Assembly (NCBI GenBank): GCA_014189875.1
Contig: BJFP01000002.1
Coordinates: 1-35,984 of the forward strand
Direction: 5' to 3'
Origin: Verrucomicrobiota bacterium
GTDB lineage: Bacteria; Verrucomicrobiota; Verrucomicrobiia; Chthoniobacterales; Chthoniobacteraceae
Length of the DNA stretch: 35,984 bases
Each line of letters starts with the position of its first letter. Position 1 is the stretch's first letter. Of this stretch, positions 3,254 to 22,586 are shown in pieces. The position numbers were made by a program, and so were the translations under genes. The notes under the pieces are model-generated. The model was not told where the DNA came from. It saw only the letters and a program-made list of their open reading frames with translations, and ran no database searches.

Positions 3254-3295
3254 TTTGAAGTTTGGAGTTGGGCGTTTGAAGTTTGGAGTTTGGCC
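3254..3295. repeat. Heptad repeat, six units, TTTGAAG/TTTGGAG
   Basis: Six consecutive 7-nt units run TTTGAAG, TTTGGAG, TTGGGCG, TTTGAAG, TTTGGAG, TTTGGCC. The alternation gives a 21-nt super-period. The repeat lies between the stop of the secreted-protein gene (3215) and a gene remnant beginning at 3309. No inverted partner arm is visible nearby. Because 7 is not a multiple of 3, each frame reads a 7-residue period. Confidence 0.85.
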
Positions 3296-3308
3296 CGCCG
3301 CAGGCGCA

Positions 3309-17354: not shown

Positions 17355-17427
17355 AAGTGCTCAGTAATCCGTGCTCAGAAGAGACTCAAAAATCGTCCTT
17401 CACTGAGCACTGAGCACTGAGCACTTT
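17355..17427. repeat. Heptad inverted-repeat element, GTGCTCA / CTGAGCA
   Basis: The left arm has GTGCTCA at 17357 and 17371, 14 nt apart. The right arm is three exact CACTGAG units (17401-17421) followed by CACTTT. Outer arms AAGTGCTCAGT (17355-17365) and ACTGAGCACTT (17416-17426) are perfectly complementary over 11 bp. It lies 36 bp after the PP2C stop and before the small membrane protein gene. Confidence 0.85.
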
Positions 17428-18151: not shown

Positions 18152-18186
18152 GTCACCAGTCACTGTTCACCAGTCACCAGTCACAT
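18152..18186. repeat. Heptad repeat, five units, GTCACCA
   Basis: Five 7-nt units run GTCACCA, GTCACTG, TTCACCA, GTCACCA, GTCACAT. The repeat ends 6 bp before the GH57 stop codon (18192) and starts at the edge of a possible gene remnant. No inverted partner is present. Confidence 0.85.
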
Positions 18187-20330: not shown

Positions 20331-20356
20331 GCGGCGCAGCTAGAGCGAGCGCGGGA

Positions 20357-20437
20357 AAAGTTGAAAGTTGAAAGTTGAGAGTTGCGAGGCGGAAGGCTGC
20401 TCCTTCTTCTCAACCCTCAACTTTCAACCCTCAACTT
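20357..20437. repeat. Heptad inverted-repeat element, AAAGTTG / TCAACTT
   Basis: The left arm is three exact AAAGTTG units plus AGAGTTG (20357-20384). After about 25 nt the right arm is TCAACCC, TCAACTT, TCAACCC, TCAACTT (20410-20437), the complement in inverted order. The arms could pair over four heptads, and flanking GGGAA/TTCCC lengthens the stem. It lies 27 bp upstream of the GH57 ATG on its strand. The remainder of the gap to 20596 holds short repetitive tracts (TTTGCGTCTCTGCGCCTTTGC-like at about 20511) and no gene. Confidence 0.9.
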
Positions 20438-20596
20438 TTTCCCTTCCCGTCGAACTCCGGCAGCCCGAGCCGCCAGCGGATTCCCGCGCGCCGCATCGCT
20501 TTGCGTCTCTGCGCCTTTGCCCGACATCCGCTCCTCGCATCGCCGGATTTGGGGTAATCTTTTTCCCAATCCTAATCCCGTCGCGTCCGCCGCTTT

Positions 20597-21097: not shown

Positions 21098-21186
21098 GAA
21101 GGGCGCGGAGCCTATGCCGCGCGCCGTGCGTGGCAAGCGTGCAACGTTGCAGCGCGCAGCAATTCCCGAGGGCTCCCTCGGTGAAA

Positions 21187-21321
21187 GTTTAACGTTGGAC
21201 GTTAAATGTTAAACGTCGGGCCCCGCGCAGCGGCCTCGCGATGTCACGAGGTGCATTCCGATTCGCACCGCGCCTGCGGCGGGCCAAACATCCAATATTT
21301 TACGCTCAACGTCCAACGTTG
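21187..21321. repeat. Heptad inverted-repeat element, GTTGGAC / AACGTCC
   Basis: The left arm is GTTTAAC, GTTGGAC, GTTAAAT, GTTAAAC, GTCGGGC (21187-21221). The right arm is AACATCC, AATATTT, TACGCTC, AACGTCC, AACGTTG (21287-21321). The arms are inverted, and both keep an exact 7-nt register. It lies in the 292-bp gap between the hypothetical gene and rlmN, which are divergent. The same heptamers (GTTGGAC, AACGTCC) recur in the element inside rlmN about 0.4 kb away. Confidence 0.88.
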
Positions 21322-21389
21322 GCACTCCCGAGCACAACGCGCGCAAGTCAGTCCTTGGCGTCCGTAGCATCATGCGCCATTGCTCACAC

Positions 21390-22586
21390 ATGCCGTCCAC
21401 CACGGAAAAACCAGCCATCCAAAGCCTAGACCTCACGGAGATCGAGGCCGTGCTCGCCGAGCGCGGGCAGCCGAAATACCGCGCACAGCAGGTCCTCCGC
21501 TGGCTCTACGAAAAGCGCGTCACGTCCTTTTCCGAAATGACCGACCTGCCCGCCGCACTGCGCGCGGATCTTGCCGAGGCGTTCACATTCCTCCGCCTCG
21601 AAAGCCTCCGCGTCCTCGGCAGCGCCGACACCACGCGCAAGTACCTCTTCCGCCTGCCGCCCGTCGTGCGTGCGGGCGGAAACGTCCAGCGTCCAATGTC
21701 GGATGCCAGCCCTCGCTCGGCGAACGACGCGCCTGCTTCATTGGACGTTGGAAGTTCGACGTTGGAAGTTCGACGTTCCGATCTCATCGAGACCGTCCTC
21801 ATCCCCGCGTCGCCTGCGCTCTACGGCGAGGCGAGCGACCGCCGCACGCTCTGCGTCAGCACGCAGGTCGGCTGCGCGTACGGCTGCAAGTTTTGCGCGA
21901 GCGGGCTCGATGGCTTTTCGCGCAACCTCTCGCCCGGCGAAATCGCTGGCCAGCTCATCGAGGCCGAGCGCCTCTCCGGCGAACGCGTGAGCAACCTCGT
22001 CTTCATGGGCATGGGCGAGCCCCTCGCGAATTTCGCCAACCTCATGCGCGCGATTGACATCATCAATTCCCCATGGGGCATCGGCCTCGGCGCGCGCCAC
22101 ATCACCGTCTCCACGAGCGGCCTCGCCCCGCAGATCCGCCAGCTCGCCGACCAGCCCCGCCAGATCCGCCTCGCCATCTCCCTGCACGGCGCGACCGACG
22201 AAGTGCGCTCGCAGATCATGCCCGTGAACCGCAAGTATCCGCTCGCCGAGCTGATCGAAGCCTGCGCCTACCACACCTCGCGCAAGAAGCAGCACATCAC
22301 TTTCGAATACATCCTCATCGAGGGCATCAACGACGAGCCCGCGCACGCCGCCGACCTCGCCCGCGTCGCGAAGCTCGTGCGCGCGAAAGTGAACTGCATC
22401 CCGTACAACAAAGTCGAGGGCCTCGAATGGAAGCGCCCCGACGAAGCGCGGCAGGACGCCTTCATGGCCGTCCTCGAACGCGCCCGCATCCCCGCCACCA
22501 TCCGCCGGGAAAAAGGCCACGACATCGCCGCTGCGTGCGGGCAGTTGCGCCGTCAGCAAAGCGCGATCACGGCAGCGGCTTCGTGA
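21390..22586 (+). CDS. rlmN: 23S rRNA (adenine-C2)-methyltransferase / tRNA methyltransferase RlmN
   Basis: The 398-residue product is a radical-SAM enzyme that methylates C2 of A2503 in 23S rRNA and A37 of some tRNAs. The [4Fe-4S] motif is C162xxxC166xxC169, the conserved cysteine seven residues before it is C155, and the methyl-carrier cysteine is C383 (AAACGQLR). The N-terminal accessory domain (about 12-95) has the QVLRWLYEKRVTSFSEMTDLP signature. Start ATG 21390 is preferred over ATG 21372. Between LFRLP and DLIETVLIP, where other RlmN proteins have a short turn, there is an extra stretch of about 34-38 residues encoded by a heptad element. All catalytic residues are intact, so the gene is probably functional. 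Confidence 0.93.
   Translation: MPSTTEKPAIQSLDLTEIEAVLAERGQPKYRAQQVLRWLYEKRVTSFSEMTDLPAALRADLAEAFTFLRLESLRVLGSADTTRKYLFRLPPVVRAGGNVQRPMSDASPRSANDAPASLDVGSSTLEVRRSDLIETVLIPASPALYGEASDRRTLCVSTQVGCAYGCKFCASGLDGFSRNLSPGEIAGQLIEAERLSGERVSNLVFMGMGEPLANFANLMRAIDIINSPWGIGLGARHITVSTSGLAPQIRQLADQPRQIRLAISLHGATDEVRSQIMPVNRKYPLAELIEACAYHTSRKKQHITFEYILIEGINDEPAHAADLARVAKLVRAKVNCIPYNKVEGLEWKRPDEARQDAFMAVLERARIPATIRREKGHDIAAACGQLRRQQSAITAAAS
21681..21781. repeat. Heptad inverted-repeat element inserted in frame in rlmN
   Basis: The left arm is AACGTCC, AGCGTCC, AATGTCG (21681-21701). The right arm is ATTGGAC, GTTGGAA, GTTCGAC, GTTGGAA, GTTCGAC, GTTCCGA (21740-21781), every unit exactly 7 nt. CGTCCAATG (21690-21698) and CATTGGACG (21739-21747) are a perfect 9-bp inverted repeat. 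The element adds no stop and keeps the frame, contributing residues from about 98 to 130 of RlmN (for example DVGSSTLEVRRS). Confidence 0.9.

Follow-up and report, generated by a model that had tools for sequence, protein, structure and literature searches.

The window (the whole 35,984-nt stretch of DNA analysed, from a draft genome of the Chthoniobacteraceae) carries an otherwise intact rlmN gene that is interrupted, between the codons for LFRLP and LIETVLIP, by a palindrome with arms of tandem 7-nt units (heptads). The element lies in frame at positions 21681 to 21780, so that a palindromic heptad element of about 100 bases within rlmN, as the initial annotation had described it, was confirmed. 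The description of this segment as some 100 bp of exact heptads held for the makeup of the arms, but the left arm is short and contains a mismatch, and the middle of the element is unique sequence (Table 1). Sixteen of the 18 positions of AACGTCCAGCGTCCAATG (21681 to 21698) pair with CATTGGACGTTGGAAGTT (21739 to 21756), beyond which the right array continues. No heptad arrays appeared in 20 base-shuffled versions of the window. Folded as RNA, the segment reached −48.4 kcal/mol (z = −3.2), a value matched by none of 200 shuffles; folded as DNA, it gave a z score of −2.4. A search for relatives of the 40-nt spacer in 0.89 Mb of the same genome returned only matches of 11 to 16 nt, which are at chance level and were rejected as a source copy. 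Several other heptad hairpins and arrays lie in the window, one of them just upstream of rlmN.

Table 1. Features of the window
Feature	Position	Strand	Description
Heptad array with half of core 1	3254..3306		TTTGGAG-type array, then half of core 1 (GCCCGCCGCAGGC); second arm not seen
Heptad hairpin	17355..17426		AGTGCTC-type arms, intergenic
Heptad array	18152..18184		GTCACCA array of the ACCAGTC family, single arm
Heptad hairpin	20353..20442		AGTTGAA-type arms of 35 nt, 20-nt loop, intergenic
Hairpin just upstream of rlmN	21180..21325		GTTGGAC/GTTAAAC-type arms around core 1 (21223-21285)
rlmN ORF	21372..22586	+	404 aa; likely start ATG at 21390
Left arm, rlmN element	21681..21698	+	AACGTCCAGCGTCCAATG, read as AACGTCC AGCGTCC AATG; ~2.6 heptads, one mismatch
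Spacer, rlmN element	21699..21738	+	40 nt, unique
Right arm, rlmN element	21739..~21780	+	CATTGGACGTTGGAAGTTCGACGTTGGAAGTTCGACGTTCC; ~6 heptads, GTTGGAA alternating with GTTCGAC

The rlmN product retains its catalytic residues

The ORF protein matched the TIGR00048 RlmN profile at 376.8 bits (cut-off, 290), with the match split over two stretches. In an alignment of 30 RlmN sequences, C161, C168, C172, C175, and C389 (numbered on the 404-aa ORF) were invariant or nearly so, bearing out the earlier statement that the catalytic cysteines are intact. The numbers originally given for them (C155, C162, C166, C169, and C383) are 6 too low for this ORF because they were counted from the ATG at 21390.

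An AlphaFold model built from a 30-sequence alignment had a mean pLDDT of 77.6 and a pTM of 0.79. Residues 100 to 134 scored below 50 and are flanked by strands at residues 89 to 94 and 138 to 144, while the rest of the model resembles E. coli RlmN structures 3rf9_B (TM score by target length, 0.84) and 6fz6 (0.89). Residues 100 to 134 are predicted to form a disordered loop between two strands, in agreement with the initial proposal that the insert is tolerated by looping out. Two further genes in the genome (L375 on C135 and L376 on C118) also exceed the TIGR00048 cut-off, for a total of three; most genomes in the family have three matching genes. Because of these two extra genes, constraint on the insert-bearing copy may be partly relaxed.

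Relatives carry an empty site

When the whole RlmN protein was searched against 77 relatives, matches mostly broke near residues 97 and 137. The insert was absent from all 29 relatives read at the site at the protein level, nine of them congeners, and from all 14 relatives (nine congeners) in a DNA alignment. LP and LIE are separated by 41 aa in this genome, by 3 aa in most relatives, which read LPDGALIE, LPPVREGAEGALIE, or similar, and by 9 aa in G003 and G008. These longer loops indicate that the length of the site was variable already. The size of the gain, initially put at about 34 to 38 residues, depends on the reference: it is 38 against most relatives and 32 against G003 and G008. The presence/absence boundary anticipated for rlmN is clean in these 29 relatives, which lack the insert rather than matching its length with an unrelated conserved sequence. 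No target-site duplication was evident, but relatives with an empty site are too diverged for one to be scored. Since the genomes compared are different species, the comparison leaves insertion events undated and the ends of the insert approximate.

Heptad hairpins are numerous in this genome

We sampled 0.89 Mb, or 18% of the draft genome (746 contigs; estimated contamination, 6%), using approximate gene calls. The sample contained 70 inverted repeats with heptad arms, of which a few are weak or chance-like (runs of N were excluded). Fifty-three of the 63 that could be placed are intergenic, and some of the others lie in frame within genes. In sequence not picked for any feature, stricter criteria gave about 44 heptad hairpins per Mb, which extrapolates to about 200 for the genome; the full number is probably a few hundred. 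Genome-wide, TTGGACGTTGGA matched 81 times and its reversed control not at all. A permissive arm detector was uninformative (418 hits versus 382 in reversed sequence).

Period 7 was also dominant among tandem arrays. Among exact periodic runs of at least 16 nt in 0.77 Mb, about half of whose stretches had been chosen for matches to GTTGGAC, period 7 accounted for 44 arrays and period 14 for 8, while none of the remaining periods had more than 5. The period-7 peak was the same in 0.44 Mb of unpicked sequence (36 arrays at runs of at least 11). The units belong to many unrelated kinds and include ACTGAGC, AACGTCC, AACGCCC, ACCAGTC, AAACGCC, and AACTCTC, among others. They are also reused: 30 independent arrays drew on just 16 distinct units, fewer than the roughly 29 that random 7-mers would yield.

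Some hairpins share more than their units. Core 1, which consists of CCGCGCAGCGG, about 38 nt, and GCCTGCGGCGGGCC, matched 31 times in this genome and in none of 96 relatives. Its length was exactly 63 nt in 25 of 28 distinct copies, with an average identity of only 53% in the middle. Arrays of the CAGTKCTC type matched 95 times here, once each in G003 and G052, and in none of the other 94 genomes. Identity between units was 0.77 both within and between arms, and homogenization within arms was rejected on this basis; the value of 0.87 for opposite rungs is biased by hairpin detection. A separate dispersed core, GCCCGCCTCCT..CCGTCGGCGGCTACG, was seen on C3a (16493), C12 (5079 to 5261), C32 (8854 to 8929), and C57 (2345), where it frequently adjoins AATCCGC-type heptads and in some cases lies within genes.

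The same protein loops hold different heptads in different species

Heptads also lie in frame in genes for a CusA-like RND pump and a PcrA/UvrD helicase, both assigned by Pfam, and in genes recognized by eye as encoding a radical SAM protein, Mfd, UvrA, aconitase, and PSD1-type proteins. The initial suggestion that the element is able to enter genes is thus supported by further in-frame arrays in conserved genes. Five of these cases (UvrA, aconitase, Mfd, PcrA, and CusA) were compared with relatives. The UvrA linker contains four to five ACCAGTC units here and in G004, four to five AATCCGC units in G001 and G007, and none in G002, G006, and G008. The aconitase loop holds ACCAGTC here and in G003 and a CTCAACT array in G006; in G001, G002, G004, G007, G008, and G009, it has no array and its length is 18 nt less than in this genome. 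In Mfd, the loop is filled by GAGTGCG plus AATTCAA here, GCACGAA in G004, a degenerate CATTCGT-like array in G003, and CGAACTC in G024, which belongs to another genus, with no heptads in G001, G005, G007, G008, and G009. These comparisons show that, in UvrA, aconitase, and Mfd, species have gained different heptads in one and the same loop.

The two remaining genes carry matching arrays. PcrA has AACGTCC here and in G004, and none in G001, G002, G007, G008, and G009; copy number differs between the orthologous arrays of PcrA, as it does in UvrA. In CusA, this genome and G003 share a full hairpin (+87 nt) that G001 and G004 lack. Between the CusA hairpin of this genome (L103, C11, 5393 to 5482) and that of G003 (L323, C332), 60 of 61 arm positions agree but only 14 of 29 in loops of equal length, within coding flanks that are 88 to 93% identical, which indicates that arms persist while loops diverge.

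Mfd, UvrA, and PcrA/UvrD, all encountered in the 18% sample (contigs C6, C48, and C143), are linked to nucleotide excision repair, possibly by coincidence. The mfd gene (L098, C6, ~14867) and the radical SAM gene (L162, C252) also contain in-frame repeats of about 9 to 10 nt of the CACGGAG and CGCGGAG types, visible in both protein and DNA; these form a second repeat class in genes that already have heptads.

Unit sequences differ between lineages

Other genomes have their own units, such as ACCGGAT in G004 and AACGGGT and AACTCCG in G052. In the sequences compared, the unit is lineage specific, whereas the period and often the inverted geometry are constant. G052 (stretches L355 to L374), from another family of the same order, had 1133 matches to a GTTNRRN triplet pattern, and its AACGGGT and AACTCCG hairpins have longer loops. 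Exact GTTGGAC triplets were present, among the matches listed, in Bacteroidota, Bipolaricaulota, Cyanobacteria, Chloroflexi, and others; among those in distant phyla, likewise among the matches listed, 24 of 80 had an inverted partner within 250 bp, compared with 7 in random stretches. The recurrence of GTTGGAC in distant phyla suggests repeated birth of favored units.

Discussion

Origin and spread of the hairpins. We consider it probable, at roughly 0.6, that the rlmN segment belongs to a large population of palindromes, specific to this lineage, of about 60 to 170 bp with tandem 7-nt arms, which are copied between loci and reshaped by slippage. Within a lineage, some agent would copy units and whole hairpins to new loci, and arrays in place would then grow and shrink in 7-nt steps through slippage. 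Copies in genes would survive only if their total length is a multiple of 3, their coding strand is free of stops, and they fall in a protein loop or linker. Copy number change was observed directly at orthologous arrays, while we infer dispersal between loci. Since units are lineage specific and few units occupy many loci, copying within the lineage is favored over a universal sequence bias. The initial annotation had concluded that the element is or was mobile; copy-like spread in the lineage is indeed indicated by the few units at many loci and the restriction of core 1 to this genome, but neither a target-site duplication nor a transposase nor polymorphism between strains was seen, and arrays at orthologous sites show changes in length in place. 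Other observations count against dispersal. The UvrA, aconitase, and PcrA arrays are single arrays rather than hairpins and are compatible with simple slippage, the rlmN spacer is unique in 0.89 Mb, and GTTGGAC occurs in distant phyla. No agent of hairpin copying was found.

A possible but less well fitting account is that the element arose where it lies, from a seed in a variable loop that grew by 7-nt polymerase slippage and gained its inverted arm by template switching, with no movement between loci. The variable loop length in G003 and G008, the differing copy numbers of the orthologous UvrA and PcrA arrays, and the existence of one-armed arrays in genes all fit such an origin, as does a proposal, cited in PMC4692102, that the footprint of DNA polymerase favors slippage by 7 nt. 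Growth in place does not readily explain why few units recur at unrelated loci, why whole cores of constant length are common to many loci, or why units are lineage specific. A further proposal, which we advance only tentatively, is that the hairpins form a propagating class that inherits its geometry (the 7-nt period and inverted arms) and not its sequence; every lineage would then amplify units of its own, different units would repeatedly invade the same loops of core proteins, and a dedicated copying or templating activity would drive the process.

REP and REPIN sequences, which are associated with RAYT transposases, are dispersed short palindromes and are mostly intergenic. The heptad hairpins are likewise short dispersed palindromes, and with nine Y1_Tnp matches in the genome they might be nonautonomous transposons (MITE or REPIN type) that depend for their movement on a transposase, for example a RAYT (Y1_Tnp). 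This is improbable. Y1_Tnp counts do not track element counts (11 in G006, 9 in G002, 3 in G004, and 6 in G003), and no fixed arm-end sequence is common to the families. The palindrome flanking both RAYT loci that were read, CCCAGGGT...ACCCTGGG with ATTCAACCC, is different from the heptad-built arms, and mobilization by RAYT is unlikely on the grounds of both the counts and this separate palindrome. The flanks of the two RAYT-like genes, on L147 (C227, ~200 to 1150) and L148 (C314, ~100 to 950), contain palindromes of their own that are REP-like, ATTCAACCC..GGGTTGA and CCCAGGGT..ACCCTGGG; these make up a family distinct from that of the heptad hairpins.

It is very improbable that the hairpins have been selected for a regulatory role (as terminators, attenuators, or stabilizers of mRNA) and that the rlmN copy controls rlmN expression, although the predicted RNA stems are strong, many hairpins lie between same-strand genes, and the arms in CusA are conserved over the loops. 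Gaps between convergent or divergent genes showed no excess of hairpins by number (chi-square P = 0.51; by bases, P = 0.05), and there was no Rfam match, so that a role as terminator or promoter was rejected. In addition, the rlmN copy and others sit within genes, the positions of the hairpins lack conservation between species, and units turn over. At one site, on L121 (C55, 9569 to 9672), a heptad hairpin stops about 10 bases 5′ of the start codon of a hemA-like gene (MDVLCFGLNHKTAHVETRERFAI, by eye), and its end coincides with the expected position of the ribosome binding site. An assembly or binning artifact, conceivable in a contaminated draft of many contigs where repeats are prone to misassembly, can be set aside with near certainty, since the reading frame runs unbroken through rlmN and several further genes, G003, which is a separate genome, has insertions at the same sites in CusA and aconitase, and the UvrA array is present in G004.

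Relation to known heptad repeats. Heptamer repeats, inverted heptamer pairs, and heptads within genes have already been published. In Xanthomonas (GGGAATC) and Nostoc (GGGGA(C/T)T), hundreds of heptamer arrays are dispersed mainly between genes, with some in genes, few links to mobile elements, and, in Xanthomonas, 70 to 75 close inverted pairs; heptamer repeats are over-represented in many bacteria, although the authors noted a lack of detailed literature on them (PMC4692102). The arrays described here share with these the over-representation of period 7 relative to other periods and close inverted pairs able to form hairpins. They differ in sequence, the rlmN element being built of GTTGGAA/GTTCGAC rather than GGGAATC or GGGGAYT. 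Each of those genomes has one G-rich unit, studied as G-quadruplexes, whereas here there are many unrelated units with shared cores, and sister species have different units in a single protein loop. Geobacter metallireducens has dispersed four-heptad elements (GGGACCG, 49 copies) between and within genes (PMC2700814), which resemble ours in their dispersed tandem heptads but not in unit sequence and were presented as putative regulatory elements; we saw no comparison in that paper between filled and empty sites. In the Nostoc trnL intron, the P6b stem is made of complementary 7-nt repeats, its stem-loops change in 7-nt steps, and two unrelated classes of unit swap at one site (PMC4476775). That is a single RNA locus in an intron, whereas the hairpins of this genome are genome-wide and occur in protein loops.

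The comparison with Rickettsia palindromic elements (RPEs) made in the initial annotation is a fair one for coding tolerance, but in makeup the element is closer to the heptamer repeats published for other bacteria. PMC10969869, citing Ogata 2000 and 2002, describes RPEs as several families of short palindromes in frame in unrelated genes. Both systems place an in-frame palindrome in a conserved gene with no counterpart in relatives. RPE families are about 150 bp and have a conserved encoded peptide, whereas the arms here are heptad arrays and the peptide differs by copy; the rlmN spacer is unique in the sample and loops differ between genes. In the open-license literature, we found no prior report in which sister species had the same protein loops colonized repeatedly by different heptads.

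Implications for the genus. A simple reason can be given for why heptads are tolerated in genes. Seven leaves a remainder of 1 when divided by 3, so that an array of at least three units passes through all three reading frames regardless of the frame of entry, and a heptad that is free of stops is therefore open in any frame. The genus offers a natural experiment, with related species that have filled and empty sites and different units per loop, and the presence of copies in core genes lets the ancestral state be read. Copying between loci can be tested there against growth in place, as can the reason for a period of seven and the frequency with which disordered loops are added to core enzymes of DNA repair, RNA modification, and central metabolism. 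In this group, heptad repeats seem to keep invading the protein loops of core genes.
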